A DNA stretch of 64,000 nucleotides from Planctomycetota bacterium (GTDB taxonomy: Bacteria; Planctomycetota; Phycisphaerae; Phycisphaerales; SM1A02): positions 496,001 to 560,000 of the forward strand of contig JAIOPG010000002.1 in assembly GCA_021414025.1 (NCBI GenBank), read 5' to 3'. Shown here in pieces: positions 47,079 through 64,000 of this stretch (its first letter is position 1; every line of letters begins with the position of its first letter). Position numbers and translations under genes: made by a program. The notes below the pieces were generated by a model that was not told where the DNA came from, searched no databases, and was given only the letters and a program-made list of their open reading frames with translations.

Positions 47079-47119
47079 CGGGCTTGGTTGGGCGCGAACG
47101 AAAGTGATGGAAACACCTT

Positions 47120-47205
47120 GCCGGTGTGGCGGAATTGGCAGACGCGATGGACTCAAAATCCATTGCCCCTCGCGGGGCGTGCAGGTTCGATTCCTGTCTC
47201 CGGCA
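47120..47205 (+). tRNA. tRNA-Leu (anticodon CAA)
   Basis: A class II tRNA folds with acceptor GCCGGTG/CTCCGGC, D-arm GCGGAATTGGCAGACGC, anticodon stem ATGGA/TCCAT with loop CTCAAAA giving CAA, a long variable arm (TGCCCCTCGCGGGGCG), and T-arm GCAGGTTCGATTCCTGT. Anticodon CAA reads UUG leucine codons. The acceptor has a T6-T67 mismatch. A73 is present, CCA is not encoded, and five T follow at once. Confidence 0.94.
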
Positions 47206-47212
47206 TTTTTGT

Positions 47213-48334
47213 ATGCTGCCAAGCGTGATCAAACGATCCGCTTGCACAACTCGTCCGGCGGGCATGCGACTGGTCATGATGTTGATGGCGATGGCGATCG
47301 CCGGCGCTGCCTTCGGGGCGCTTCCTGAAATTTGCGCCACCACCGGCGGAGATTTGCCCAACACCACCGGGGAGCCGGGCAATGTGGTGCTGCCAAGCAT
47401 TCTCGATCCGCACAGCCCGCCCGCGCGGCTGATCCGCGAGCTCTCCTGGCTGGTGCTGGGCATCTGCGCCGGACTCTTCGTGCTGGTGGAGGGCATGATC
47501 TTCTACGGCGTCGTCAAGTATCGGCGTCGCCGCGACGACAAGACCAAGGACGAGCCGCGACAGGTCTACGGCAGCAACCCGGTGGAAATTGCCTGGACCA
47601 TCATTCCGCTGCTGATCGTCTTCGTGCTGACGCTCACCACGGTGCGGACCATCCGCTCGATCGAGTTGACCCAACCCCCCGCGGATGCCCTGCACGTGGT
47701 GGCGATCGGCCATCAATGGTGGTGGGAATACCGTTATCCCGATCCCGACGGAACCGGCGGCGAGGTCATCGTGGCCAACGAGATGCACGTTCCGGTGAAC
47801 CGGCCGGTGTGGGTCCGCCTGGAAAGCGCGGATGTGATCCACTCCTGGTGGGTGCCCGCGCTCACCGGCAAGACCGACCTGCTGCCCAACCACACCAACC
47901 ACACCTGGTTCAACGCGGAGAACGAGGGGATCTATCTGGGCCAGTGCGCCGAGTATTGCGGCAACCAGCACGCGGGCATGCTGCTGCGCGTCGTCGCGAC
48001 GCAGCCTGAGGAGTTCGACGCGTGGCTTCGAGCTCAGGCGGCGCCCACGGTTCATGACACCACCGTCGCCGAGGGGCGCGAGATTTTCCAGGAGTTCGCC
48101 TGCTCCAATTGCCACACCGTGAAGGGAGTCTCCGACGGGCAGTTCGCGCCGGATCTCACTCACTTGATGAGCCGACAGACCATCGCCTCGGGGGTCGCGC
48201 CGCTGGACGCCGCGACGCTGAAGGCGTGGATCGCCGATCCGCAGATTCTCAAGCCGGGCTGCAACATGCCCAGCCTGCAGTTGGATCCGCAGGAGCTCGA
48301 CGCCGTGACCTCCTACCTGCTGACGCTCCGTTGA
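47213..48334 (+). CDS. coxB: caa3-type cytochrome c oxidase subunit II with fused cytochrome c
   Basis: The protein has two membrane segments (about residues 85-110 and 125-150) and then the CuA domain, with CAEYCGNQHAGM giving the two Cys, His and Met CuA ligands. A C-terminal cytochrome c domain follows, with CSNCH haem binding and Met in GCNMPSLQL. Such a fusion defines caa3-type oxidases. From the ATG at 47213 it is 373 residues with a signal-like N-terminus; an ATG at 47264 is an alternative. The start lies eight bases after the tRNA-Leu. It leads the coxB-coxA-coxC run. Confidence 0.94.
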   Translation: MLPSVIKRSACTTRPAGMRLVMMLMAMAIAGAAFGALPEICATTGGDLPNTTGEPGNVVLPSILDPHSPPARLIRELSWLVLGICAGLFVLVEGMIFYGVVKYRRRRDDKTKDEPRQVYGSNPVEIAWTIIPLLIVFVLTLTTVRTIRSIELTQPPADALHVVAIGHQWWWEYRYPDPDGTGGEVIVANEMHVPVNRPVWVRLESADVIHSWWVPALTGKTDLLPNHTNHTWFNAENEGIYLGQCAEYCGNQHAGMLLRVVATQPEEFDAWLRAQAAPTVHDTTVAEGREIFQEFACSNCHTVKGVSDGQFAPDLTHLMSRQTIASGVAPLDAATLKAWIADPQILKPGCNMPSLQLDPQELDAVTSYLLTLR

Positions 48335-48338
48335 AGCC

Positions 48339-50012
48339 ATGACCACCGTCCCCGCCCCCATCCATTCAACGAGCGACCCGCGCATGGGCTTGGGCGAGCG
48401 GCTGCACGGCTGGGCGGTCTCCGTGGATCACAAGCGGCTGGGCATCATGTACATCGCCGCGGGGCTGATCTTTTTCGTCATCGCCGGCCTCGAGGCCACG
48501 CTGATGCGACTGCAGTTGATCGCACCGCTCAACGATGTTCTGACGCCCCAGGGCTTCAACCAGATGTTCACCATGCATGGCACCACCATGGTCTTCCTGG
48601 TGGGCATGCCGGTGCTGCTGGGCTTCGGGAACTACCTGATTCCGCTGATGATCGGCGCCCGCGACATGGCCTTCCCGCGGCTCAACGCCTTTGGCCTCTG
48701 GCTCTTCGTCTTCGGCGGCATCCTTCTCTACTACTCATGGATCGGCGGCGACGGTTTGTATGGACTGGGCGGCGCGCCGGACACCGGGTGGTTCGCCTAC
48801 TCGCCGCTGACCAGCAAGGCCTTCAGCGTCGGACACGCGACCGACTACTGGATTCTGGGCATCATGGTGAGCGGCTTCGGCAGCATGACGACCGCGATCA
48901 ATTTCATCGCCACGATTCTCTGCATGCGCTGTCCGGGCATGACCATGATGCGCATGCCGCTCTTTGTCTGGCTGATGCTCACCGTGGCCATTCTGGTACT
49001 GGTGGCGCTGCCGGTGCTGACCGGGGCGCAGGTGATGCTTCTGCTGGACCGCTTCCTGGGGGCGCACTTCTTCGATCCGCAGCAGGAGGGCAGCGTGATC
49101 CTCTGGCAGCATCTCTTCTGGTTCTTCGGCCATCCCGAGGTCTACATCCTGGTGCTGCCCGCCTTCGGCTTCATCAGCGAGATCATTCCAGTCTTCAGCC
49201 GCAAGGTGATCTTCGGCTATCCGCTGATGGTGGCGGCGACCGTGTCCATCGCCTTCATCTCGCTGGGGGTCTGGGCCCACCACATGTTCGTCATCGGCAT
49301 GCCGCCCTGGCTCAACTCGCTTTTCGCGGCGAGCACCTTCCTGATCGCGGTGCCCACCGGCATGAAGATGTTTAACTGGATCGGCACGATGTGGGGGGGG
49401 CGGATCCGCTTCGACACGCCCATGCTCTTCGCCACCGGCTTCCTGGTGATGTTCCTCTTCGGCGGGCTGACCGGCATCATGCTCGCAGTGGTTCCCTTCG
49501 ACTGGCAATTGTCCGACAGCTACTTCGTAGTCGGGCACTTCCATTACGTGCTCTTCGGCGGCACGATTCTGGCGGTCTTCGCGGCGATCTTCTACTGGTT
49601 CCCCAAGGCCTTCGGGCGCATGCTCTCGGAGCCGATGGGGCAGTGGACCTTCTGGCTGCTGATGATCGGCCTGACGCTGGTCTTCCTGCCCATGCACATG
49701 AGCGGGATCTTGGGCATGCCGCGGCGCGTCTACACCTACCAGCCGGGGCGCGGCTTCGAGATTTGGAACCTGATCTCCACCATCGGAGTTCCCTTTCAGA
49801 TCGCGGCCGTGCTGCTGCTGGTGATCAACGTCGTCAAGTCGCTCAAGTCGGGGCGCGTCGCGGGTCCCGACCCGTGGGACGCGTGGACGCTGGAGTGGGA
49901 GACGGCCAGTCCGCCGCCGAGCGAGAATTTTCGCAAGATTCCAACCTGCACCAGTGCGCGGCCGCTGTGGGACCGCAAGCACCCGGAGGATCCCGATTCA
50001 AACTACGAGTAG
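48339..50012 (+). CDS. coxA: Cytochrome c oxidase subunit I
   Basis: The 557-residue protein has 12 membrane segments and the haem-copper ligands: MHGTTMVFLV near residue 73 (haem a), FWFFGHPEVYILVLP near 260 (CuB His with the crosslinked Tyr and the D-channel Glu), WAHHMFVIGMP near 308 (CuB His pair), and VVGHFHYVLFGG near 393 (haems a and a3). The HPEVY sequence is that of A-family oxidases. It reduces oxygen and pumps protons. It lies 4 bp after coxB and is followed 54 bp on by coxC. Confidence 0.96.
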   Translation: MTTVPAPIHSTSDPRMGLGERLHGWAVSVDHKRLGIMYIAAGLIFFVIAGLEATLMRLQLIAPLNDVLTPQGFNQMFTMHGTTMVFLVGMPVLLGFGNYLIPLMIGARDMAFPRLNAFGLWLFVFGGILLYYSWIGGDGLYGLGGAPDTGWFAYSPLTSKAFSVGHATDYWILGIMVSGFGSMTTAINFIATILCMRCPGMTMMRMPLFVWLMLTVAILVLVALPVLTGAQVMLLLDRFLGAHFFDPQQEGSVILWQHLFWFFGHPEVYILVLPAFGFISEIIPVFSRKVIFGYPLMVAATVSIAFISLGVWAHHMFVIGMPPWLNSLFAASTFLIAVPTGMKMFNWIGTMWGGRIRFDTPMLFATGFLVMFLFGGLTGIMLAVVPFDWQLSDSYFVVGHFHYVLFGGTILAVFAAIFYWFPKAFGRMLSEPMGQWTFWLLMIGLTLVFLPMHMSGILGMPRRVYTYQPGRGFEIWNLISTIGVPFQIAAVLLLVINVVKSLKSGRVAGPDPWDAWTLEWETASPPPSENFRKIPTCTSARPLWDRKHPEDPDSNYE

Positions 50013-50066: not shown

Positions 50067-50669
50067 ATGAGCTCCATGCCACTGGCCCATTCCGCGCCCG
50101 CATCGATGCCCTCGCGCGGCAAGGTGGGCATGATCTGCCTCATCGGCATGGAGAGCTGGTTCTTCGCCGGCTTCATCGTGGCCTACCTCTTCTACATCGG
50201 CAAGAGCTCGACGGGCCCGCAGCCGCGCGACGTGCTGGACCTCAAGCCCGTGCTGGTGAATTCGGCGGCGCTGATCGCCAGCTCCTTCACGGTGGTCGCG
50301 GCGCTGCGGAAGCTGGCCCGCGACGAAATGGGGGCCTTCAAGTTCTGGATGGCGCTGACAATCCTGCTCGGCGGATATTTCATCTACGGCACCGGCGTGG
50401 AATGGAAGGGGCTGATTGAGGATCGGCACCTGACGATCTCGACCAACCTCTTCGGCACCACTTTCTACAGCCTGGTCGGTTTCCACGCCTTCCACGTGGT
50501 GGTCGGGCTGCTGATGCTCACTTCGATCCTGATCCTCTCCATGCTCGGCCATATCAACGTGGTGCGCGACCACATGCGCATCGAGCTGGTCAGCTGGTAC
50601 TGGCACTTCGTGGACGTGGTCTGGATCTTCGTCTTCACGACGGTCTACATCGTGGGGATGCGGCCATGA
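50067..50669 (+). CDS. coxC: Cytochrome c oxidase subunit III
   Basis: The 200-residue protein has five membrane segments, with IGMESWFFAGFIVAYLFY near residue 26 and SLVGFHAFHVVVGLLML near 134. SWYWHFVDVVWIFVFTTVYI near 176 is the C-terminal signature of subunit III. The five-segment form lacks the first two helices of the long version. It stabilises the core during turnover. Its stop overlaps the next start (ATGA). Confidence 0.93.
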   Translation: MSSMPLAHSAPASMPSRGKVGMICLIGMESWFFAGFIVAYLFYIGKSSTGPQPRDVLDLKPVLVNSAALIASSFTVVAALRKLARDEMGAFKFWMALTILLGGYFIYGTGVEWKGLIEDRHLTISTNLFGTTFYSLVGFHAFHVVVGLLMLTSILILSMLGHINVVRDHMRIELVSWYWHFVDVVWIFVFTTVYIVGMRP

Positions 50670-51490
50670 GCGCGCGAGACCACGAAAAGATCCGCGGCCG
50701 CGAGGCGCCCTATCTGCGCGGCGTTCCCGAGTCCACCGGGGCGCCGATGATCGCGGCCTTCGGCGTGACCCTGCTCTTCGCGGGGTTGATCACCAGCCCG
50801 ATGGTGATGTTGGTGGGAGTGATCTGCATGATCGTGGGTTTCATCGGCTGGATCCGGACTGTGTTTCCAAACGAGGCCCTGGAGATGCTTCCCATCGGCA
50901 GCGAGATTCCGGAGCCGGCGCCGCGCTTCGACGCGAATCCGCGCAGCGAGCGCGTCTCGCTTCCCGAGGAGATCCAGCCCTACCGATCGGGCGTGCTCGG
51001 CGGGCTCATCGGCGGCATCGCGATGGCCGCGGTCGCCATTGGCTGGGGCGTGCTCAAGGCGGGCAGCTTCTGGATGCCGATCAATCTCCTCGCCGGAATT
51101 TTCCTGCCTTCGGTCGAGGCGGCGAACGTCGACGCCTTGAAAGTGTTCCACCTGGACTGGTTCATCACCGCGGTGGTGATTCATCTGGTGGGCTGCGTGT
51201 TGGTGGGCTTGGTGTATGCCATCGCCTTGCCGATTGCGCCGCGGCGACCGGTGCTCTTCGGCGGCGTCGTGGCCCCGATCCTCTGGACCGGCGTGCTTTA
51301 CGGCAGCATCGGCATCATCAATCCGGCGCTGGAGCAGCATGTCTCCTGGCGCTGGTTCATCGCCAGCCAGGTGGCTTTCGGCGTGACCTGCGGATTCGTG
51401 ATCAGTCGCTGGACCAAGGTGCCGACCATGCAGAAGTGGTCGCTGCAGGAGCGGTTCCACCTCGAGGGGAACAGGGAAACGAAGCCATGA
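50666..51490 (+). CDS. Membrane protein with subunit IV-like N-terminus
   Basis: The 274-residue protein begins with a short helix pair like caa3 subunit IV (APMIAAFGVTLLFAGLITSP, then MVMLVGVICMIVGFIGWI). It continues with about five more membrane segments (VLGGLIGGIAMAAVAIGWG, HLDWFITAVVIHLVGCVLVG and others), making it larger than usual subunit IV (about 100 residues). The position between coxC and the cytochrome c lipoprotein, with ATGA overlaps on both sides, makes it part of the oxidase or of a linker to the bc complex. The exact role is unknown. Confidence 0.7.
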   Translation: MSARDHEKIRGREAPYLRGVPESTGAPMIAAFGVTLLFAGLITSPMVMLVGVICMIVGFIGWIRTVFPNEALEMLPIGSEIPEPAPRFDANPRSERVSLPEEIQPYRSGVLGGLIGGIAMAAVAIGWGVLKAGSFWMPINLLAGIFLPSVEAANVDALKVFHLDWFITAVVIHLVGCVLVGLVYAIALPIAPRRPVLFGGVVAPILWTGVLYGSIGIINPALEQHVSWRWFIASQVAFGVTCGFVISRWTKVPTMQKWSLQERFHLEGNRETKP

Positions 51491-52215
51491 CGCCGCGCCT
51501 TCGAAAATCCCTGGCTGCGGCTCTCGCCGGATCGGCCTGCGCCTTGTCCGCGAGCCTCGCCGCGTGCGGCAGGATCGGCACGACCAAGCCGGCGGAAACG
51601 GCAGTGGTTTCCCTGCCTCAGGCAGCGCTGGCCAAGTACGCGCAGAATTGCTCCGCCTGTCATGGCGCCGACGGCGTCAATGGCGCCGCGCGGCCTCTGG
51701 CTGACGCGAACTATCTGGCCAGCGTGGGCCGCGAGTCGATCATCGCCATCACGACAAGCGGTGTGCGCGGAGGATTCTGTCCTGGCTCGGGCCCGGGCTC
51801 GCTGGCCAACTGGGACAGCAAGCAGGTCGCCGCATTCGTCGATGGATTGATGGAAGCATGGGGCAAGGGCGGAGTCGCACTCTCCATTCCGTGGTCGGTG
51901 AAGTCGGCCAGCTCCGGTGATGCGTCGCGCGGGCGAGGCGTCTACGCCGCGATGTGCCAATCCTGCCACGGCGCGCCGGGATCCCAATCCGCCTCAAGCG
52001 CCGGCAGCGTGACCGACCCCAATTATTTGCGCTTGATCACCGACCAGGGCCTGCGCTCCGCGATCATCTTTGGCCGGCCCGCGCGCGGCATGCCCGCCTG
52101 GAGCGGTCCCTTTCCGAACCAGCCTGCCGATCGAAAGCTGTCCGCCCAGGAAGTCTCCGATGTCACGGCGTTTCTGCGTTCCACCACGAGCCTGAAATCA
52201 CAGGAGCAACCATGA
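51487..52215 (+). CDS. Dihaem cytochrome c lipoprotein
   Basis: The 242-residue protein has a lipoprotein signal (ALSASLAAC, Cys near residue 27) and two CxxCH haem sites, NCSACHGADG near 56 and CQSCHGAPGS near 158. Each domain resembles a monohaem class I cytochrome c. It probably shuttles electrons from the bc complex to caa3 at the periplasmic membrane face. It overlaps the subunit IV-like gene and the Rieske gene by ATGA. The longer in-frame opening upstream was rejected in favour of the start that places the lipobox correctly. Confidence 0.9.
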   Translation: MTPRLRKSLAAALAGSACALSASLAACGRIGTTKPAETAVVSLPQAALAKYAQNCSACHGADGVNGAARPLADANYLASVGRESIIAITTSGVRGGFCPGSGPGSLANWDSKQVAAFVDGLMEAWGKGGVALSIPWSVKSASSGDASRGRGVYAAMCQSCHGAPGSQSASSAGSVTDPNYLRLITDQGLRSAIIFGRPARGMPAWSGPFPNQPADRKLSAQEVSDVTAFLRSTTSLKSQEQP

Positions 52216-52742
52216 GCTGCGATTGTCCACATTCCCCCGGCTCCACGCCGCCGCCCAGCGCCCGCCGCGGCGTCCTGCTGAAGATCGGCGTCGGCTTGAT
52301 GGGAATCGGCGGCGCCATCGCGGCGATTCCGCTGATCGGTTACGCCATCACTCCTTCGCTGAAGAAGTACAAGAACACCTGGATCGATCTTGGCGACACC
52401 GGCAATTTTCCCGAGGGGGAGACGCGCCTGGGCAAGTTCACCAATCCCAACGCCTCGCCCAGTGATGGCGCCAGCGCCGAACAGGCGGTCTGGGTGCGCT
52501 CCTTCAAGCCGAAACAGTTTCAGGTCTTCGCGGTCAACTGCGCCCACCTCGGCTGTCCGGTGAAGTGGTTTCAGCAGAGCAAACTTTTCATGTGCCCATG
52601 TCACGGCGGCGTCTACTACGAGGATGGCAGCCGCGCCAGCGGACCGCCGCCGCGCGGGCTCTTTGAATACAAGTGGAAGATCGAAAACGGCCGCCTGTTC
52701 ATCGACGCCGGGCGCCTGCCGGGCCTGGAGGAAAGCGCCTGA
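52212..52742 (+). CDS. Rieske iron-sulfur protein of the bc complex
   Basis: The 176-residue protein has a membrane anchor near residues 22-46 and the Rieske cluster ligands CAHLGC (near 114) and CPCHGG (near 133), followed by the usual EDGSRASGPPPRGL. It takes electrons from quinol at cytochrome b and passes them to cytochrome c. GPPPR is the conserved proline loop. The start overlaps the cytochrome c stop (ATGA) and cytochrome b begins immediately after its stop. Confidence 0.94.
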   Translation: MSCDCPHSPGSTPPPSARRGVLLKIGVGLMGIGGAIAAIPLIGYAITPSLKKYKNTWIDLGDTGNFPEGETRLGKFTNPNASPSDGASAEQAVWVRSFKPKQFQVFAVNCAHLGCPVKWFQQSKLFMCPCHGGVYYEDGSRASGPPPRGLFEYKWKIENGRLFIDAGRLPGLEESA

Positions 52743-54242
52743 ATGGCCCGCTTGATCAAGCGCATCCTGGGCTGGACCGAGTCACGCTCCGGCGTGGCGG
52801 CCTTCGTTGCGCCGATCGTGACCCACCGCGTGCCGCGCGACGCCAAGTGGTGGTACGTCTTCGGCAGCGCGTCGCTGATGTTCTTCATGATCCAGGTGGT
52901 GACCGGCATCCTGCTCGCCACCTTGTATGTGCCCAGCGCCGCCGAGGCCTTTTCGAGCCTGCAGAACATCGATCAGCAGGTGCCCTTCGGGTGGATGCTG
53001 CGTGCACTTCACGCGTGGAGCAGCAACGCCATGGTGCTGATGGTGGCCATCCACATGAGCCAGGTCTTCCTGCACGCCTCCTTCAAGTTTCCGCGCGAGC
53101 TGATGTGGATGGTGGGCGTGCTGCTGCTCTTTGGCACGCTGGCCCTGGCCTTCACCGGGCAGATCATGCGCTGGGACCAGGACGCCTACTGGGGACTGGG
53201 CATCGGGGCCTCGATCGTCGACCGCGTGCCGCTGATGGGCAACTCGCTGCGCAATCTCATGCTCGGCGGCCCCTACATCGGCGGCGCCACGCTGAGCCGC
53301 TTCTTCGCGCTGCATGTCTTCGTGCTGCCCGGCCTGATGATCGCGCTCATCGGGGCGCACATGGCCTTGATCCTGAAGAACGGCATCAGCGAGATGCCCA
53401 AGCCGGGCATGGTCGTGGATCCCGAGACCTACAAGGAGGAATACGAGGAACGCGTCCGCAAGACCGGCGTGCCCTTCATGCCCGACGCGGCGCAGCGCGA
53501 CATGGTTTTCTGCGGCGCGATGCTGATCGCGGTGGGCGTGCTCGCGGCGTGGCTGGGCCCGGTCGGACCCAACGGCGTGCCCGATCCGACGGTGATCGAC
53601 GCGAATCCGCGCCCCGACTTTGCCTTCCTCTGGATCTTCACCGCCATGGCCCTGATGCCGCCGCAGATCGAGACCGCGGTGCTGCTGATCGCGCCGGTGG
53701 TGTTGGGACTCTTCCTGCTCGGACTGCCGCTGATCTCCAACCGCGGCGAACGCGCGCCGAGCAAACGACCCGGCGCCGTGCTGGGTTTTGTGCTGGTGGT
53801 GACGGCGCTGGGAACGCTCTCCTGGATGGGCGTGGTCAGCGCCTGGAGTCCGGTGATGGATGCGTGGACCAGCCTCCCCACCCCGGTGCAATACCTCGCG
53901 GGGCGCACGCCGCTTGAGCTGCAGGGCGCGCTGGTAATGCAGCACAGCCAGTGCCGCAACTGCCACAGCCTGGGCGGGGCGGGGGGGCTGCGCGGACCAA
54001 GCCTGGACGACATCGGCTCGCGCAAATCCTGGGATCAATTGGTGCGCCAGGTGCAGCAGGGCGGCGGCAACATGCCCGCCTACGGCAAGAATCTCTCCAG
54101 CGCCGAGACCACGGCGGTGGTTGCCTTCATGGCCACTCTGCGCAGCTCCGGCGCGCCGGCCTCGGTGATTCCCGGCGCGATGGAGGTGCAGCCCTCGCCG
54201 GGCGAAGCGCCTCGCGCCACCCTCTCGAACGCGGGGCGGTAG
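52743..54242 (+). CDS. Cytochrome b fused to a C-terminal cytochrome c domain
   Basis: The 499-residue protein has the cytochrome b core with paired haem His (HAWSSNAMVLMVAIHMSQVF near residue 90 and HVFVLPGLMIALIGAHMALI near 197). Further membrane segments of the subunit IV half follow, including PDFAFLWIF and PPQIETAVLLIAP, and then a single haem-binding domain at the C-terminus (QCRNCHSLGGAGG near 405). This packs cytochrome b, its C-terminal half and a cytochrome c in one chain. It starts directly after the Rieske stop. Confidence 0.9.
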   Translation: MARLIKRILGWTESRSGVAAFVAPIVTHRVPRDAKWWYVFGSASLMFFMIQVVTGILLATLYVPSAAEAFSSLQNIDQQVPFGWMLRALHAWSSNAMVLMVAIHMSQVFLHASFKFPRELMWMVGVLLLFGTLALAFTGQIMRWDQDAYWGLGIGASIVDRVPLMGNSLRNLMLGGPYIGGATLSRFFALHVFVLPGLMIALIGAHMALILKNGISEMPKPGMVVDPETYKEEYEERVRKTGVPFMPDAAQRDMVFCGAMLIAVGVLAAWLGPVGPNGVPDPTVIDANPRPDFAFLWIFTAMALMPPQIETAVLLIAPVVLGLFLLGLPLISNRGERAPSKRPGAVLGFVLVVTALGTLSWMGVVSAWSPVMDAWTSLPTPVQYLAGRTPLELQGALVMQHSQCRNCHSLGGAGGLRGPSLDDIGSRKSWDQLVRQVQQGGGNMPAYGKNLSSAETTAVVAFMATLRSSGAPASVIPGAMEVQPSPGEAPRATLSNAGR

Positions 54243-54247
54243 CGCCG

Positions 54248-56536
54248 ATGGAGCGCGCCACCCTCTGGTCGGCGTGGAGCGTCCTCTCGCCTTTCACACT
54301 CGTGGCGATTCTGCTGCTGGCGCTCTATTGGCGCGGTTGGCGCCGCCTGCACCATGCGATGCCGCAGCGCTGGTCGCTCAGGCATGCCCTGTTCTTCTCG
54401 GCGGGCATCGCCGCGATGTGGATCGCGCTGCAGTCACCCATTGACGCGATGGCTTCCTGGCTCCTCTCGGCGCACATGACGCAGCATTTCCTGCTGACCA
54501 TGATCGCGCCGCCGCTGCTGCTGCTGGGCTGGCCGATGTCGCCCTTGCTCGCAGGGCTGCCGCGCTGGATGAGCCGCGACGGACTCGGTCCGCTGCTGGC
54601 GTGGCCGCGCGTCCAGAAGTTTGGCCGCGGCTTGACTCATCCTGTCACCGGATGGCTGGCGATGGTGCTGCTCACCTGGGGCTGGCATCTGCCGGTGATG
54701 TATCAGTTGGCGCTGGAAGTTCCGGCGTTGCACATCGTGGAGCATGCGTGCTTCCTCTGGGGCGGCCTGCTGTTCTGGTGGTGCGTCGTTGAGCCCTATC
54801 CGTGGCGCAATCCCTGGCCGCGCTGGGCGATTCCGGTCTATCTGTTGAGCGCCGATATGGCCAACACCATCGTCGCCGCGGTCCTCGCCTTCGCGTCGGG
54901 GGCCATCTACCCGTGGTACGAAGCGACGGCGCCGACATTCGGTGTCACGGCGCTGGCCGATCAGCAGGCCGCCGCGGCCATCATGTGGATCCCGGGGCAA
55001 TTGGTGTATCTGGTTCCCGCTGCAGTGATCATGTTCAACACGCTCTCGCGACCGCGCACGGTGCAAGCGCGGTCGTTTGCCTTGCCGATTCTCCAGGTCG
55101 CGGGCCGCCGCAGAAAGCGATCGCCCTTTGACGCGATTGAGATCCCGCTGCTGGGCGCCATCCTGAAGTCCGCCAACGCGCGCGGCGGATTGCGCTGGGT
55201 GATGTTCGCGGGAGCAGCCGCCATCTGCATCGATGGATGGCTTGGCCCGCGCGAGGCCTCGACCAACCTGGCGGGCACCTGGACTTGGACGCATTGGCGG
55301 GGTCTGACCGCGGTGTCGATGATCGCGGTCGGCAACCTGGCCTGCATGGCCTGCCCGCTGATCGCGCCGCGGAATTTCCTGCGCCGCTGGATCACGCCGC
55401 GCTTCCGCTGGCCGCGGGCGATCTCCACCAAGTGGATTGCGCTTGCGTTGATTGGAGCATGGCTGCTGTGCTACGAAATCTGGTCGCTCTGGGATTCGAG
55501 TTTCGCGACGGCGTGGATCATCGCCGGCTACTTCATGGCCGCAACCGCCATCGATCTGCTTTTCGAAGGAGCGTCCTTCTGCAAGTGGATCTGTCCGATC
55601 GGCCAATACCAGATGGCCATGAGCACGGCGAGTCCGATGGAGGTGCGGATCCGCGCCGAGGATGTGTGCCAGACATGTCAGACGCATGATTGCCTGCGCG
55701 GCAATGCGTCCTCGCCCGGCTGCGGCACCGGATTGTTTCTGCCAAAAAAAGTCGGCAACCTGGATTGCACCTTCTGCCTGGACTGCGTCTCGGCCTGCCC
55801 GCACGACAACATCGGCCTGCTTACGCGGGTTCCCTTCGCGGAGCTGGTTCAGGATCGCTGGCGATCGAGCATCGGCCTCATGGCCAAGCGCGCCGACTTC
55901 GCCGCGCTTCTGGCGATGCTCGCGGTGGGCGCTTTCGCCAACGCCCTCACCATGACCGAGCCGATGCTGGAATTCGTCGCGGAGTGCAGTGAACGATTGG
56001 GTTCCAATGTCATTGCGGTCATCGCCGTGGTCATAGCTTCCATGGCATTGATCGCGCTTCCATTGCTGATCGCGGCGGGGATCGGCTCGCTGATGCGCAA
56101 GGAACAGTTTCGCATTCGCTTCGCCCATCTGACGCTGGAGCTGCTGCCGCTGGCCATCGCCATGTGGGTGGCGCATCTCGGCTTTCATCTCGCAACGGGG
56201 TTCCGTTCCGCCTGGCCGCCGCTTCAACGGGCCATGCTTGACATGAATGTTTCCGGATTCGGCGAGCCCCAGTGGAGCGCCAATTGCTGCGCGGTCATGC
56301 CTTCCTGGCTTCTTCCCGCGCAGCTCTGCCTGCTGGGAGCGGGGCTGCTGGTCTCGATGACGCTGGTGTGGATCCGCTCCGAGCGATCACTCGGTTTGTC
56401 CAACGGATCGCTGCCGAGGGTGCGCTCGGTGGCGGCACTCGCCTGGTGCGAGCTGGGCGCGGCATTGGCCTGGTGGATGCTGGGCGCCTGGATCGTCCTG
56501 CAACCGATGCAAATGAGGGGGCTGATCCCATCATGA
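54248..56536 (+). CDS. Fusion of CtaG-like copper-assembly protein with polyferredoxin (CcoG/NapH-like)
   Basis: From the ATG at 54248 this is 762 residues. The first about 290 match caa3 CtaG: HMTQHFLLTMIAPPLLLLGWP near 76 and LTWGWHLPVMYQLAL near 140, followed by HIVEHACFLWGGLLFWW near 163 and several more membrane segments. The second half has CKWICPIGQ near 444, an irregular Cys set near 478 (CQTCQTHDCLRG), and a standard 4Fe-4S motif LDCTFCLDCVSACPH with Cys507, 510, 513 and 517. It continues with further membrane segments. CtaG inserts CuB; CcoG-type polyferredoxins are reported cupric reductases. Its stop overlaps the next gene (ATGA). Confidence 0.85.
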   Translation: MERATLWSAWSVLSPFTLVAILLLALYWRGWRRLHHAMPQRWSLRHALFFSAGIAAMWIALQSPIDAMASWLLSAHMTQHFLLTMIAPPLLLLGWPMSPLLAGLPRWMSRDGLGPLLAWPRVQKFGRGLTHPVTGWLAMVLLTWGWHLPVMYQLALEVPALHIVEHACFLWGGLLFWWCVVEPYPWRNPWPRWAIPVYLLSADMANTIVAAVLAFASGAIYPWYEATAPTFGVTALADQQAAAAIMWIPGQLVYLVPAAVIMFNTLSRPRTVQARSFALPILQVAGRRRKRSPFDAIEIPLLGAILKSANARGGLRWVMFAGAAAICIDGWLGPREASTNLAGTWTWTHWRGLTAVSMIAVGNLACMACPLIAPRNFLRRWITPRFRWPRAISTKWIALALIGAWLLCYEIWSLWDSSFATAWIIAGYFMAATAIDLLFEGASFCKWICPIGQYQMAMSTASPMEVRIRAEDVCQTCQTHDCLRGNASSPGCGTGLFLPKKVGNLDCTFCLDCVSACPHDNIGLLTRVPFAELVQDRWRSSIGLMAKRADFAALLAMLAVGAFANALTMTEPMLEFVAECSERLGSNVIAVIAVVIASMALIALPLLIAAGIGSLMRKEQFRIRFAHLTLELLPLAIAMWVAHLGFHLATGFRSAWPPLQRAMLDMNVSGFGEPQWSANCCAVMPSWLLPAQLCLLGAGLLVSMTLVWIRSERSLGLSNGSLPRVRSVAALAWCELGAALAWWMLGAWIVLQPMQMRGLIPS

Positions 56537-57090
56537 GACGTCGCGCCACCATCGCCATCGCATCAGCCCTGTTTCTGGGCATGCTCGCGCCCCGCGCCGC
56601 CGCCGACGGCGGGCAGGTCATCGCTATCAAGGCGATCGGTGAGGATCGCGTCGTCCTGATGGTGAATCCATCGCAGCCATGCGTGGGCCCCGTCAAAATC
56701 ATCGTGCGCGCCAGCCCCAGGCTTGAGCTGGTCGAATGCACCCTGAGCGCGACCAGCGCTCTGGGCGGCGCACCGATCCAGTGCGCAATGGCGCCGGACC
56801 CCGACGGACTCGGTCTTCGCGCCATCATTCAATGCGACGACCCCGCACTCTGGAAGATCTCGGTGCAGTCGATCACGGCTTATGGCTCCTTCGAGATTTC
56901 CGGCGAGGTGATGGTGGCGCCGACTCCGCCGCGATGGGAAAGCCACTGGCCGTGGCTGCTCTCGTGGGTTCCCTTCGCCTTGCTCCTGCTCGTCCGGCAA
57001 TCGGCCCGCCGCCATGCCAAGCATTATGAAGCCGCCGACGGAGTATTCTCCGTGCGGCGAACCCCGCCTGAGATCGAACTTCGACCGTGA
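56533..57090 (+). CDS. Small exported, C-terminally anchored protein (possibly FixH/YtkA-like)
   Basis: The 185-residue protein has a signal peptide (ending PRAAA), a beta-rich domain of about 110 residues with two or three Cys (QPCVGPVKIIV, ECTLSATSALGG, IQCDD), and a membrane segment near residues 143-158 before a basic tail. The location straight after a CcoG-like half would suit a FixH-type assembly partner, but no FixH motif is certain. It overlaps the fusion gene by ATGA and the kinase-like gene by GTGA. Confidence 0.65.
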   Translation: MRRRATIAIASALFLGMLAPRAAADGGQVIAIKAIGEDRVVLMVNPSQPCVGPVKIIVRASPRLELVECTLSATSALGGAPIQCAMAPDPDGLGLRAIIQCDDPALWKISVQSITAYGSFEISGEVMVAPTPPRWESHWPWLLSWVPFALLLLVRQSARRHAKHYEAADGVFSVRRTPPEIELRP

Positions 57091-60000
57091 CACCACCCGC
57101 CGACATCTCCACGCCATCCGAGAGCGACGCGCTCGAAGTGCTCCTGATCGACGGGTCCGGCTTCATCATCGCGCTGAGCATGGGCGCCGCCAAATATCTG
57201 GGCCGACCGCAACGCGAATTGCAGGGGCGATCGCTGAGCGAAGTCTTTCCCATGGGGGTTCATCCGGCATTCCCATGGCTCGACCAGCTCTCGAAGTCCG
57301 GCTCGCCACTGCCGCCGCTGTTGCTGGATCTCGAGCACACCCAGGCCGATGAGGCCTCGGTCCATGTGGAGGGCGTGCTCTACGCCATTGAAGTTGGGCT
57401 GCGCAGCGACGGCGAAACCGTGGCGGGCCTGGCCATCCGTCCCAGCACCAGCTTCGCCGTCGAGAACGAGCTGCTCACGGCTCAGCGCCAGATCCTGCAA
57501 CTGGCGGCGCAGCGCGCCACGCTGCCCGACACGCTCGATGCGGTCGCAACATTTTCGGAGAAGGTGCTGCCCAGCGAGGTCTTCTGCCTCCTGACGCCGG
57601 TCTCGGAGCAGGGGGACATCGGCAGCGGCCTTCGCGCCACGCTGCCCGGCGACATTCGCGGCCTGCTCGCCTCCTTTCAGGATTCTCCCGACGCGGCGCC
57701 GGGACTGGTGGCCCGCAGCACCGGGAAGATGGTCGTCGCCAATGAGCTCGATCAGGATCCGCGCTGGAAGAACTATTCCAAGCGCCTGCGCAGCCACGGC
57801 CTGGTCACCGTCTGGAGCGTTCCCATCTGCGACTCGCGCAAGTCCGCGGTGCGCGCCATCCTGGAGTTTCATCTTCCTGTGCGCCGCGGACCCAACCGCG
57901 CCGAGCTGAAGGTGATCGAGGAATTGTCGGCGCTGGTCCGCCTGGCGATCGACCTGCACCAGTTGCAAGCCGATCTGGACTTGAGCGAGTCCAGTCTGCG
58001 CTCCACGATCCAGGCGATTCCGCTGATTCTCTGGCAGACCGACCGCGAGGGGCGCTTCACGGTCTGCGAAGGCAAGGGGCTGGCGTCGCTGGGATTGAAG
58101 TCCGGCGATGTGGTCGGGCAGAAGGTGGAAGAGATTCTTCGCTCCGACCCCAACGCGAAGATCCACGTGCAGAAGGCGCTGGCCGGCGAAAGCGTCGCCG
58201 GTGAATTGATCGCGGGAACCACCCGATTCATCCAGTCGGCGGGACCGCTGCGCGACGAGGCCGGAGCCATCGTCGGCGCCCGCGGCATCGCCCTGGACGT
58301 CACCGCGCAGCGCCAGGCCGAGGCGGCGGCGGAGGCGACCGGCGACCTGCTCAAGACCGTCGTCGACACGGCGCTGGACGCGCTTGTCACGATCGACGTG
58401 GAGGGCAAGATCGTCCTCTGGAACAAGCAGGCGGAACTGCTCTTCGGCTGGAGCAGCGCCGAGGCCAAGGGCATGCGCCTGGAGGAGACCATCATCCCGC
58501 CCGATTTGGTGAAGGCCCATCAGGAGGGCATGCGCCGCTACCACGCTGAGGGGGTGGGTCCGATCCTGGGCAAGCGCATCGAGATCATGGCAATGAACCG
58601 CGCCGGCACAAAGTTCCCAGTCGAACTGGCGGTGAGCCCCCACGCCGGAAAATATGTGGGCGGATTCAGCGCGTTCATCCGCGACATCTCCGACCGCCGC
58701 CGCAGCGAGACTGCGGTGAAGGCCAGCGAGGAGCGATTGAAGCTGGTCATCGAGGCGAGCACCGACGGCTTCTGGGATTACCGGCTCGACGGCGGCATGA
58801 GCGTGGTGAGCGACCGCTGCTCCACAATGCTCGGCTACAAGTCGGGCGAGGCGCCGGTCTCCACGCCCGATGTGAATCCGCTGATCCATCCCGACGACGC
58901 GCCGCGCGTGAAACAGTCCTGGCAGGAGCATCTGGCGGGCAAGACGCCGCGCTACGAGTCGGAGCATCGGCGCCGCGCCAGCGATGGTTCGTGGCGATGG
59001 GTGTTGGACCGCGGCAAGGTGGTCGAGCGCGTGGAGGGAATGAAGGCGGTGCGCGTCACCGGAACGCAGACCGACATCACCGAGCGGCGCGGGCTTGAGG
59101 CGAGCCTGGGCGCCGCCGAGCGCATGGAATCGCTGGGTCTTCTCGCCAGCGGCTTTGCCCAGGAGCTCGATAGCGTGCTTTCGGTCATCCGCGCGCATGC
59201 GTCGCTGGCCAACATCACCACAGGAGTGCCTGCGAAGGCGGTGGAGAGTCTTGAGGTGATCCAACTCGCGGTCGCTCGTGCGAAAGCCATGAGCCGCAAC
59301 TTGATTCTGCTTGGCGAGGGCGGCGAAGTCGGCGAGCCGCCGCGGCCGATCGTGGTGAGCGACGCGGTGCGCGAGGCCGTGCGCCTGCTCGCGCCGAACC
59401 TGCCGCGCACCATCACCGTCGCTGTTGAGGACCTCACCGACGGTCGCGAGCGCGTCGCCGTTGATTCAAGCCGACTGCAGCAGGCGATCTTGAACCTTTT
59501 GATGCGCGCCTCAGAAGCACTGGCCAACAACGGCATGATCACCATGCGGATTGCCCAGACGATCGAAGGCTCGGAGCCGCTGGTGCGGGTGGAGTGCGTT
59601 GATCGCGGAGCGCCATTGAGCGCCGATCAGCAGCAGCACGCGTTCGATGCCCTCGCCCCCGACGGTTCGTTGCGCGGACGAACCGCGATGGGACTGGCCG
59701 CGGTGAAGCGATTCGCCGAATCCGCCGGCGGTCATGCGCAAGTCTCATCAACCGCCGAGGGCACGGTCTTCTGCCTCTCCATTCCCGCAGCGCGGGAGTC
59801 CTACAGCCAGGAGCGCCTCCCCATCGTGCTGGCGGAGAGCCATCCGCTGCTGCGACCAATGTTGGTCGAAGCCTTGCAGGCCAGCGGCCATCGCGTGGTC
59901 ACCGTGGAAAGCGACCGCGATTTGGAAGCCGCGGTGCGGCGCATGGGCTCGGGGTGCGTGGTCGTGCTGGACGAGGAGAGCGTGACCGGGCAGTCGGGCG

Positions 60001-60173
60001 CCATCCTGAAGAAGATCAAGGCGAGCCTGAAGACCATGCCACCGGTGATCCTGCTGGTCAGCGCCGCCGCGGAGGAGGTGGATCTGGGCGTGCCCGCGAG
60101 TCGCCTGCAGAAGCCCTTCATGTTCGACTCGTTGCTCAACGAGATCATGAAAACCGCGGGCCAGCCAACATGA
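57087..60173 (+). CDS. PAS/GAF multidomain degenerate histidine kinase with receiver domain
   Basis: The 1028-residue protein starts at a GTG and has a PAS-like region (about 15-125), a GAF-like domain (about 130-290), and three more PAS domains (about 300-415, 420-540, 545-675). The kinase core comes at about 677-905 and a receiver domain at about 910-1028. The phospho-acceptor site reads GFAQELDSVL where GxAHDFNNLL is usual, so His is Gln692. The N-box reads QAILNLLMRASEA, with Arg807 for the ATP-binding Asn. The receiver keeps Asp962 (VVLDEES) and the Lys in LQKPF. It has no membrane segments. It is likely a non-catalytic sensor scaffold. It overlaps the upstream small gene (GTGA) and lldD-like gene (ATGA). 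Confidence 0.85.
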   Translation: MTPPADISTPSESDALEVLLIDGSGFIIALSMGAAKYLGRPQRELQGRSLSEVFPMGVHPAFPWLDQLSKSGSPLPPLLLDLEHTQADEASVHVEGVLYAIEVGLRSDGETVAGLAIRPSTSFAVENELLTAQRQILQLAAQRATLPDTLDAVATFSEKVLPSEVFCLLTPVSEQGDIGSGLRATLPGDIRGLLASFQDSPDAAPGLVARSTGKMVVANELDQDPRWKNYSKRLRSHGLVTVWSVPICDSRKSAVRAILEFHLPVRRGPNRAELKVIEELSALVRLAIDLHQLQADLDLSESSLRSTIQAIPLILWQTDREGRFTVCEGKGLASLGLKSGDVVGQKVEEILRSDPNAKIHVQKALAGESVAGELIAGTTRFIQSAGPLRDEAGAIVGARGIALDVTAQRQAEAAAEATGDLLKTVVDTALDALVTIDVEGKIVLWNKQAELLFGWSSAEAKGMRLEETIIPPDLVKAHQEGMRRYHAEGVGPILGKRIEIMAMNRAGTKFPVELAVSPHAGKYVGGFSAFIRDISDRRRSETAVKASEERLKLVIEASTDGFWDYRLDGGMSVVSDRCSTMLGYKSGEAPVSTPDVNPLIHPDDAPRVKQSWQEHLAGKTPRYESEHRRRASDGSWRWVLDRGKVVERVEGMKAVRVTGTQTDITERRGLEASLGAAERMESLGLLASGFAQELDSVLSVIRAHASLANITTGVPAKAVESLEVIQLAVARAKAMSRNLILLGEGGEVGEPPRPIVVSDAVREAVRLLAPNLPRTITVAVEDLTDGRERVAVDSSRLQQAILNLLMRASEALANNGMITMRIAQTIEGSEPLVRVECVDRGAPLSADQQQHAFDALAPDGSLRGRTAMGLAAVKRFAESAGGHAQVSSTAEGTVFCLSIPAARESYSQERLPIVLAESHPLLRPMLVEALQASGHRVVTVESDRDLEAAVRRMGSGCVVVLDEESVTGQSGAILKKIKASLKTMPPVILLVSAAAEEVDLGVPASRLQKPFMFDSLLNEIMKTAGQPT

Positions 60174-61418: not shown

Positions 61419-64000
61419 ATGCAGCTTTCAATAGCCAAAGTATCCAGTTGGATTGTCGCGGTCGTAGTGTGTCTATTTATTTTGACCAGCGCATTCGCCG
61501 CACCGCCTGGCTCATTTACGCTTTCAAACGAAGCGCCGATTTGCGACACCACACCACCCGCAAATCCGGCAATCAGACTCAATTGGACTCAATCGAATGG
61601 AGCGACAACTTACGCCGTCTATCGCAACGGCAGCCTTTACGCTTCATCCATTACTGGGCTTACATTTTACAACAATGCCAACCTGACGGCGGGGCAAACG
61701 TACACCTACAAAGTGCGCGCGACGAACGCCTCTGGGTCCACCGACTCCAACACCATCAGCGTCGATGTCCCGGTAAATATTTGTGCATCCGCAAATTTGC
61801 CTGGAAACTTCACGCTATCGAATCAGACTCCGATCTGCGACACCACTCCGCCTGCAAACCCAGCAATTACACTCAATTGGACCCAATCGAATGGAGCGAC
61901 AACTTACGCCGTCTATCGCAACGGAAGCCTTTACGCTTCATCCATTACTGGGCTCACGTTTTACAACAATGCCAACTTGACGGCGGGGCAAACGTACACC
62001 TACAAAGTGCGCGCGACGAACGCCTCTGGGTCCACCGACTCCAACACCATCAGCATCGATGTCCCGGTAAATATTTGTGCATCCGCAAATTTGCCTGGAA
62101 ACTTCACGCTATCGAATCAGACTCCGATCTGCGACACCACTCCGCCTGCAAACCCGGCAATTACACTCAATTGGACCCAATCGAATGGAGCGACAACTTA
62201 CGCCGTTTATCGCAACAGCAGCCTTTACGCTTCATCCATTACTGGGCTTACATTTTACAACAATGCAAACATGACGGCGGGGCAAACATACACCTACAAA
62301 GTGCGCGCGACGAACGCCTCTGGGTCCACTGACTCTAACACCATCAGCGTCGATATCCCAGTAAATATTTGTGCATCCGCAAATTTGCCTGGAAACTTCA
62401 CGCTATCGAATCAAACGCCATTTTGCAATTTTGATCCGCCTGCGACACCAGAGATCGATTTAAACTGGACAGCCTCGAGCGGCGTAGCGACTTATCAGGT
62501 GTGGCGTGATGGCGTTCCGTATAGCCAAAACCAAACACAACAATATTTCTACAACCAGATCAATCTGTCACCGGGGCAAACATACACCTACACGGTGCGC
62601 GCGACTAACTCATTCGGGTCTACTGACTCAAATGCGATTGTCGTCACTATTCCGGCCAATATATGTTCAGCTACGAATCTGCCCGGAAATTTTACACTAT
62701 CAACTCCGACGCCAATTTGCGACCCCACCCCTCCCGCAAAACCCGCAATTCCTCTCGGTTGGACGGCCTCAAGTGGTGCGGCGACTTATACCATGTTTCG
62801 CAATGGCAGCCCCTATGCGTCTACCACGGGATTGACGTTTCTCAACAATGCTAATTTGATTGCCGGACAAACATACTCCTATATGGTGCGCGCAACAAAT
62901 ACTATCGGATCAACAGATTCAAATACAATTAGCGTTGTAATACCTGAAAATATTTGCATTACTTCTGACTGCCCAGCAGGAGAGATTCGTGACTGCAATG
63001 GTAATTGTGCGCCGGCAGCCTGGGCAAGTGATGCATATTGCGACAATGGCTACTACTGGTACAACGGGGTCTCAATTAACTTTGACTGTTCCAAATATAA
63101 TAGTGACGGTGGAGCTTGTATAAATGTCCCTGGATTGTCCGAGCCGGCAGCCCACAGCAAGCCTCTGCCGACCATATGTATCCCGCAGGATCCTCCAACT
63201 CCAACCCAAAAAAACCTTGTTGAAATTGTCCATGGACGCAATACAAGTGACGATGCTTATCGCGGTGTTTGGAAAGCAATGGCAGATAGGATTCGTTCTC
63301 AGCTCGGATCAGATTGGCAAGTGGTTGCTCACAACTGGACTCAAGAGTCAAATCATGGAGTTGGATCCGTGCTTTCGTATGCAGCTACGCAAGGTACTTA
63401 TGTTGGAAAAGCAATAGCAGCGGGGCATTACGACCATGTTCATTTAATCGGCCACAGCGCTGGTGCTATGGTCATTGCCACGGCAGCATTCTGGATCAAA
63501 CATCCAGATGGGGATCCATATTCCACTCCAACAAATACGGTGATTCATACAACTTATCTAGATGCATATACAGGAATATGGGAAGGGCTTTGGACCGGAC
63601 AAATATACGGAGCGAATGCAAATTGGTCGGATCAATATTACTCAAAAGAACCAAGGGATTCAGAGTGCTATGGCCCTTATGGAGACATATATCATGATCA
63701 ATGCTCGACATATCTATATACAGAAGCGGTACTTCCATTATGCCATAATGTCGATATTACCGAATTGGATCAGTCGTATTCGCCTGTATGTCTCTCGACG
63801 CACTCTTGGCCACACAAGTTCTACCGATACTCAATCACGGGTGAAACCTCCGAATTAGGGTGCTCTTCCTGCGGCATACGGTATTGGTGCTACGATCCGC
63901 CATTCCAGACCTATGCCCCGTACGGCTTTGGCTTAAGCAAAGAGAAATTGGGTTCGGCATGGGGATCGACTGTAGCGGACGACAGATATATACGTGGTGC
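61419..64000 (+). CDS. Secreted protein with five FN3-like repeats and C-terminal alpha/beta hydrolase (partial)
   Basis: The frame opens at the ATG at 61419 behind CGGAGGA and runs 860 codons to the window end without a stop. A signal peptide (about residues 1-28, ending AFA) precedes five fibronectin type III-like units of about 98 residues, from residue 31 to about 519. A Cys-rich linker (about 520-600) follows, then an alpha/beta hydrolase with the nucleophile elbow GHSAG at residues 678-682 (Ser680). Likely partners are Asp715 (YLDAYTG) and His795 (STHSWPHK). The units share paired Cys (PICD near each start, NICAS near each end). Base composition is lower in GC than the neighbouring gene. 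A secreted esterase or lipase with adhesive repeats is inferred. Confidence 0.85.
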   Translation, partial: MQLSIAKVSSWIVAVVVCLFILTSAFAAPPGSFTLSNEAPICDTTPPANPAIRLNWTQSNGATTYAVYRNGSLYASSITGLTFYNNANLTAGQTYTYKVRATNASGSTDSNTISVDVPVNICASANLPGNFTLSNQTPICDTTPPANPAITLNWTQSNGATTYAVYRNGSLYASSITGLTFYNNANLTAGQTYTYKVRATNASGSTDSNTISIDVPVNICASANLPGNFTLSNQTPICDTTPPANPAITLNWTQSNGATTYAVYRNSSLYASSITGLTFYNNANMTAGQTYTYKVRATNASGSTDSNTISVDIPVNICASANLPGNFTLSNQTPFCNFDPPATPEIDLNWTASSGVATYQVWRDGVPYSQNQTQQYFYNQINLSPGQTYTYTVRATNSFGSTDSNAIVVTIPANICSATNLPGNFTLSTPTPICDPTPPAKPAIPLGWTASSGAATYTMFRNGSPYASTTGLTFLNNANLIAGQTYSYMVRATNTIGSTDSNTISVVIPENICITSDCPAGEIRDCNGNCAPAAWASDAYCDNGYYWYNGVSINFDCSKYNSDGGACINVPGLSEPAAHSKPLPTICIPQDPPTPTQKNLVEIVHGRNTSDDAYRGVWKAMADRIRSQLGSDWQVVAHNWTQESNHGVGSVLSYAATQGTYVGKAIAAGHYDHVHLIGHSAGAMVIATAAFWIKHPDGDPYSTPTNTVIHTTYLDAYTGIWEGLWTGQIYGANANWSDQYYSKEPRDSECYGPYGDIYHDQCSTYLYTEAVLPLCHNVDITELDQSYSPVCLSTHSWPHKFYRYSITGETSELGCSSCGIRYWCYDPPFQTYAPYGFGLSKEKLGSAWGSTVADDRYIRG
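61509..62975 (+). repeat. Five tandem FN3-like coding repeats of about 294 bp
   Basis: Units start at 61509, 61803, 62097, 62391 and 62685. The first three are nearly identical at DNA level; I count by eye about 14 differences in 294 bp between units 2 and 3, several at third positions. Units 4 and 5 have diverged, and unit 5 is one codon shorter. This suggests recent duplication or gene conversion of the first three. Confidence 0.85.

Follow-up and report, generated by a model that had tools for sequence, protein, structure and literature searches.

We analysed a stretch of 64,000 nucleotides (the window) from a Planctomycetota bacterium (Phycisphaerales; SM1A02; assembly GCA_021414025.1, contig JAIOPG010000002.1, positions 496,001 to 560,000, forward strand), in which one gene joins a Caa3_CtaG domain to a NapH-like polyferredoxin. 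The 762-residue reading frame was uninterrupted from 54248 to 56536, and neither a stop nor a frameshift lay between the halves. A preliminary description, made from the sequence alone, had proposed both this fusion and its setting inside a caa3 operon, here found to be a caa3/bc operon, and both were borne out by the single frame, the matches to Caa3_CtaG and NapH-like models, the recurrence of the fusion in relatives, and the surrounding genes. The gene and its parts were as follows (TM, transmembrane; Fe-S, iron–sulphur; pLDDT, predicted local distance difference test):

54248..56536, + strand: CtaG–polyferredoxin fusion gene, 762 residues (open frame with ATG start; Pfam/NCBIfam matches; fusion kept in dozens of genomes)
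54320..55042, + strand: Caa3_CtaG domain, residues 25–265, with about seven predicted TM helices (PF09678, E 1.5e-54; helices and charge bias)
55058..55144, + strand: linker between the halves, residues 271–299, basic, predicted cytoplasmic (low model confidence at 271–289)
55145..56533, + strand: NapH/NosR-type polyferredoxin half, residues 300–762, predicted as four TM helices, a cytoplasmic Fe-S region and five TM helices (TIGR02163; AlphaFold2 model, pLDDT 89)
55343..55357, + strand: C366-x2-C369-P370 motif, predicted cytoplasmic side (invariant)
55580..55597, + strand: C445-x3-C449-P450 motif, predicted cytoplasmic side (cysteines invariant; proline kept in the fused and YtkA-linked clades)
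55667..55801, + strand: eight ferredoxin cysteines (474, 477, 482, 492, 507, 510, 513 and 517), two predicted [4Fe-4S]-type sites (from sequence; kept except in one genus)
56174..56188, + strand: H643-x3-H647, predicted outer end of a TM helix (kept in all three clades)
56285..56290, + strand: Cys680-Cys681, in a loop predicted to be periplasmic (peculiar to the fused proteins, in which Met/His clusters are the only replacements)
56501..56521, + strand: Q752-P-M754-x-M756-R-G758, C-terminal motif, predicted periplasmic (invariant or nearly so)

In a Pfam search, the N-terminal half scored 185.3 bits against PF09678 (curated cut-off, 27.7) over residues 25–265, whereas its score with TIGR02737, the NCBIfam equivalog for the Bacillus-type CtaG, was 47.4 bits (cut-off, 279). 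Judged by these scores, the half belongs to the same domain family as Bacillus CtaG but lies outside the Bacillus equivalog. The motifs listed in the preliminary description were found at the residues it gave: HM(T)QH at 76–80, GWHLPVMY at 145–152, and HIVEH at 162–166. H76, M77, H80, H147, H162, H166, and M246 were invariant and are predicted to lie on the outer face; counted over 47 fused rows, H76, H80, H147, H162, and H166 were kept in all 47 and D238 in at least 95%. CtaG had also been described as the CuB assembly factor, which is no more than tentative for this domain: the proven factor is the Cox11-type CtaG, and the role of the Caa3 type has only been tentatively assigned (PMC9145763, PMC13344008). 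The whole genome gave no match to the Cox11-type model (PF04442) and a single Caa3_CtaG, that of the fusion, which is thus the only CtaG-type factor of this genome.

The C-terminal half, which had been called CcoG/NapH-like, matched the second of these types and not the first. The CcoG identity was rejected because TIGR02745 gave no match at E 0.1; the best model was that of NapH/MauN (TIGR02163; residues 387–522, E 5e-8, 32.7 bits against a cut-off of 213), and Fer4 models matched weakly. The CxxCxxCxxxCP motif was confirmed at C507, C510, C513, and C517-P518. Like the CcoG type, however, the half is a membrane protein with motifs for two tetranuclear Fe-S sites, namely eight conserved cysteines and two CP motifs. 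A true CcoG (393.8 bits, over the cut-off) was encoded in a separate cbb3 operon elsewhere in the same genome. No nap or mau system was found among the neighbours of the fusion, which were caa3 and bc genes instead. A fold search with the model of the fusion and sequence searches of the PDB with the fusion gave no match.

Recurrence of the fusion in planctomycetes

The survey for the same fusion, set beforehand as a check, covered 392 genomes of the phylum Planctomycetota and 151 genomes of the family to which the window belongs. Full-length copies with approximately 70% identity were present in five other assemblies, along with three fragments, and further copies with 37–54% identity were found in many more planctomycete genomes; across the phylum, full-length matches recurred in three families (f1, f47, and f72). 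Within the family of the window, the fusion protein was matched in 78 genomes, one of which (G407) had the second half only. A 274-residue membrane protein encoded in the same operon, used as an operon marker, was found in 74 genomes of this family. The two co-occurred in 72 genomes and were both missing from 71 of the 151 (Fisher p 4e-33, with relatedness not corrected for), and several of the few discordant genomes were incomplete or fragmented.

It is next to impossible that a misassembly, a frameshift artefact, or chance readthrough joined two separate genes, because the same join was carried by dozens of independent assemblies, several of them in one or a few contigs, down to an identity of 37%. 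Broken copies were also seen: one (G397) was split over several frames, by mutation or sequencing error, and another (G521) carried an internal TGA.

Oxidase operon and downstream protein

The fusion gene was preceded by closely packed genes on the same strand, from CtaC to cytochrome b, and followed by a small gene whose ATG overlaps the stop codon of the fusion (ATGA):

47231..48334, + strand: CtaC with the CuA motif CAEYCGNQHAGM and a fused cytochrome c
48339..50012, + strand: CtaD, oxidase subunit I, which carries CuB (TIGR02891, 707 bits, over the cut-off)
50067..50669, + strand: CtaE, oxidase subunit III (PF00510)
50666..51490, + strand: 274-residue membrane protein, the operon marker (no Pfam match over the cut-off; co-occurs with the fusion)
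51484..52215, + strand: di-heme cytochrome c (domain search)
52209..52742, + strand: Rieske protein (domain search)
52743..54242, + strand: cytochrome b with a C-terminal cytochrome c domain (domain search)
56533..57090, + strand: small protein, predicted periplasmic, 185 residues, with an N-terminal hydrophobic helix, an immunoglobulin (Ig)-like beta domain and a C-terminal TM helix (divergent FixH/YtkA/CrdA relative)

The order from CtaC through CtaD, CtaE, the 274-residue protein, cytochrome c, Rieske protein, and cytochrome b to the fusion was constant in the examined loci wherever the contig was long enough, and the fusion held this place in the oxidase operon in families f1, f47, and f72 alike. 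The 274-residue protein is probably an unrecognised subunit of the oxidase or of a supercomplex. A tRNA-Leu (CAA) lies at 47119–47206, directly upstream of CtaC; the longest mechanical CtaC frame begins inside it, and the real start is therefore later, at about 47231.

In most of the examined loci, the gene after the fusion encoded a small protein with a signal, a beta domain, and a C-terminal helix. The preliminary description had placed a FixH-position protein here, and profile comparisons agreed that it is distantly FixH/YtkA-like. The window copy had no YtkA or FixH Pfam match, but one homologue (L080) reached 20.8 bits against FixH (E 4e-4; cut-off, 23), the comparison with the YtkA clade described below gave 91.8% in hhalign, and the profile matched the Helicobacter pylori copper protein CrdA at E 0.0015. 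A fold search, weak if taken alone, returned the copper proteins FtrA/P19, FetP, and CrdA mixed with fibronectin-type domains, and His/Met-rich inserts were present in two homologues (L042 and L106). These profile comparisons relate the small protein, as a divergent copy, to the YtkA fold; it shares the Ig-like periplasmic domain of YtkA/CtaK, FixH/CcoH, and CrdA.

Other oxidases of the genome had candidate copper factors encoded beside them. Contig C5 carried a cluster of the ccoNO-P-G-H-I type that includes the true CcoG. On contig C4, a second A-type oxidase was accompanied by Sco and alternative-complex-III-like genes (L120; gene names assigned partly by eye). This Sco was the only match in the genome, and none was found in the fusion operon. 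Gene position therefore suggests a division of labour in which CcoG would serve the cbb3 oxidase, Sco one aa3 oxidase, and the fusion the caa3 oxidase of the window.

Predicted topology, fusion-specific loop, and unfused relatives

An AlphaFold2 model of the fusion, built from 46 sequences, had a mean pLDDT of 89 and a predicted template modelling score of 0.77, with a disordered linker at 271–289. Helix order and loop charge agreed on one predicted topology, in which the CtaG half has seven TM helices with its N-terminus outside, and the second half has nine, namely four followed by five that end outside; CxxCP, CxxxCP, and the eight ferredoxin cysteines face the cytoplasm in this topology. 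Basic residues were concentrated in the predicted cytoplasmic loops, which puts the Fe-S region on the inner side of the membrane and the candidate ligands on the outer side. The outer face of the model comprises H76, M77, H80, H147, H162, H166, and D238 from the CtaG half, and M569, H643, H647, Cys680-Cys681, and the PMxMRG tail from the second half.

When 36 fused proteins were aligned with 10 unfused ones, the loop of Cys680-Cys681 stood out. The pair was present in 32 of the 36 fused proteins, and in the other four its position was taken by Met/His clusters (GMSMM, GMSHAM, MGSLM, and MVMHH), whereas all ten unfused homologues had Gly-Leu or Gly-Met. The usual ligands of Cu(I) are Cys, Met, and His. 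Replacement of Cys-Cys only by Met/His, that is, of thiol by thioether or imidazole, is what would be expected of a Cu(I) site, and the pattern is consistent with a copper site acquired together with the fusion.

The unfused homologues closest to the second half were encoded in a cluster of their own (L048–L053 and L109–L114), in which genes for a membrane protein, a YtkA-family protein, the polyferredoxin, and a small protein followed one another in every locus where the contig spans both sides. The YtkA-family gene thus directly precedes the unfused polyferredoxin; all three of its products that were tested scored above the Pfam cut-off, and the N-M-x-H-A-G-M motif of these proteins was invariant in the clade. 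The corresponding small protein of the window stays below the Pfam cut-offs and lacks this motif. CtaK of B. subtilis, a YtkA-family protein, has a postulated role in CuA assembly (PMC13344008). In the unfused cluster, the first membrane protein carries an HWAEH motif and the small protein an AHEGPPFP motif. On whether the fused clade had a single origin, the two trees differed: a branch with full support set the fused copies apart in the tree of the CtaG half, but in the tree of the second half the YtkA-linked clade was possibly nested inside the fused copies, which would imply later fission.

More remote polyferredoxin relatives (L054, L055, L057, and L058) adjoined a NapA-like molybdopterin oxidoreductase and several NapG/NapH-like proteins. 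They have N-terminal YHS-like, cysteine-rich, putative metal-binding domains, which we considered as another copper partner; given that neighbourhood, the argument is weak. The same neighbourhood, together with the NapH-type similarity of the second half and the position of the fusion gene directly after Rieske and cytochrome b, speaks for a different role, in which the second half would be a respiratory electron-transfer subunit (a NapH-like dehydrogenase of quinol or ferredoxin that feeds or regulates the bc–caa3 chain) and CtaG would have been joined to it only as a fellow membrane part of the operon. We consider this unlikely, because it does not account for an assembly factor as the fusion partner, for the fusion-specific Cys/Met/His loop, or for the YtkA-linked unfused relatives.

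Proposed role in copper delivery to the caa3 oxidase

There is about an even chance that the fusion is a factor dedicated to the caa3 oxidase, one whose CtaG domain receives copper that the protein itself has reduced or held. Electrons, with quinol or reduced ferredoxin as candidate donors, would enter the cytoplasmic double [4Fe-4S] region and cross the membrane to an outer-face copper site formed by Cys680-Cys681 and perhaps neighbouring conserved His/Met. At this site Cu(II) would be reduced to Cu(I), or Cu(I) held, and the attached CtaG domain, with its outer-face His/Met/Asp, would deliver the copper to the caa3 oxidase during its assembly, at CuB in CtaD and possibly at CuA in CtaC, with the downstream FixH/YtkA-like protein as a periplasmic partner. 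The narrower version, in which a single membrane protein reduces copper on the outer face with cytoplasmic Fe-S electrons and delivers Cu(I) straight to its own CtaG domain and then to caa3, is a tentative proposal whose chance falls somewhat short of even. If true, it would describe a new class of enzyme and a caa3 counterpart of CcoG, and would define Cu(I) as the form in which Caa3_CtaG receives its substrate. The link to copper is supported indirectly, through the Cys-Cys or Met/His loop peculiar to the fusion and the position of the unfused clade behind YtkA-family proteins. Also in favour of the dedicated factor are the domain content, the constant place of the fusion in the oxidase operon, its co-occurrence with the operon marker, the profile matches of the small protein, and the lack of any other CtaG-type factor in the genome.

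The conserved vicinal cysteines, predicted to face outward and to adjoin an Fe-S electron path through the membrane, might instead belong to a thiol reductase. The polyferredoxin half would then reduce a Cys680-Cys681 disulphide and keep the CuA cysteines of CtaC, or the ligands of CtaG-bound copper, in reduced form. CtaC has a full CuA motif, the job is of the TlpA/Sco type in an operon without such proteins (the single Sco match of the genome lies beside another oxidase), and the genus that lost the Fe-S domain has lost the cysteine pair too. However, three other lineages (L075, L042, and L089) keep all the Fe-S cysteines and have Met/His in place of Cys-Cys, which makes thiol exchange impossible there, and this explanation is therefore also an improbable one.

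Several observations weigh against copper reduction and delivery by the fusion. In three genomes of one genus (g8; G376, G430, and G456), the fusion was kept and the whole ferredoxin domain deleted; these copies retain both CP motifs and have a Met/His loop in place of Cys-Cys. In other planctomycetes, caa3-type operons contained a solo CtaG with no polyferredoxin beside it (four loci, L115–L118). Taken together, these cases imply that CtaG function does not depend on Fe-S electrons in every lineage. The small protein of the window has no recognisable copper-ligand motif. H643, H647, M569, and the PMxMR tail were equally kept in the remote molybdopterin-linked clade and are not copper-specific; they may serve haem, quinol, or structure, and we withdrew H643, H647, M754, and M756 as copper-specific evidence for the same reason. 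The genus without the ferredoxin domain, which keeps the membrane part and Met/His, would suit a copper importer, exporter, or copper-site scaffold whose delivery of copper is gated by the Fe-S half, acting solely as a sensor of redox state or oxygen, and Corynebacterium offers a CtaG fused to a transporter-like CopD domain (PMC13344008, PMC9145763). We judge such gating to be distinctly improbable, as the eight Fe-S cysteines and the CxxCP and CxxxCP motifs are kept in nearly all lineages, which electron transfer fits better.

Several known systems resemble the fusion in part. Bacillus subtilis CtaG (PF09678) likewise has the domain, the seven-TM topology, the outer-face His/Met, the invariant Asp, and a place in a caa3 operon, but no permanent fusion to a polyferredoxin, and its own role at CuB or CuA is unsettled. 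In CtiP (CopD–Caa3_CtaG) of Corynebacterium, a bc1–aa3 organism, Caa3_CtaG is also joined to a copper-related membrane module; its partner is the copper transport domain CopD, without an Fe-S domain, and CtaG is C-terminal there and N-terminal here. CcoG/RdxA/FixG is a membrane polyferredoxin with two Fe-S sites, a role in copper loading of a haem–copper oxidase (proposed for the fusion), and a FixH-like neighbour as here, and CcoG is an established cupric reductase for cbb3 (PMC7558416); the fusion differs in lacking a match to the CcoG model and the C-terminal FixG Ig domain, and in its caa3 rather than cbb3 setting. NapH/MauN and NosR, which include the best sequence match, share CxxxCP-type motifs and a cytoplasmic double ferredoxin with the fusion, which adds five TM helices behind the Fe-S region and the Cys-Cys loop and lacks a nap, mau, or nos context. 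A planctomycete Sco–DUF420 (CtaM-like) fusion (PMC13344008) also joins oxidase-assembly parts, although its domains are altogether different.

Caa3_CtaG–CopD fusions and polyferredoxin cupric reductases were already known, and the apparently new element is the joining of CtaG to a polyferredoxin, of which no description was found in the literature searched (subscription papers and domain-architecture databases lay outside that search). The function of Caa3_CtaG and the need of A-type oxidases for a dedicated cupric reductase, the part that CcoG plays for cbb3, are stated open questions (PMC9145763, PMC13344008), and no CcoG homologue exists in Firmicutes (PMC13344008). A natural fusion whose loop switches between Cys-Cys and Met/His ties Fe-S electron transfer to CtaG in a directly testable way, for which the genus without the ferredoxin domain provides a natural deletion control.

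Behind the small gene, and overlapping it by 4 bases, a hybrid sensor kinase of the PAS/GAF type (identified by eye) occupies 57087–60173; it holds the same place in several relatives (L002–L004, L007, L009, and L040) and may be co-transcribed with the oxidase operon. Farther downstream of the operon, 61536–62413 consists of three tandem copies of a 294-base unit with a 95% match.

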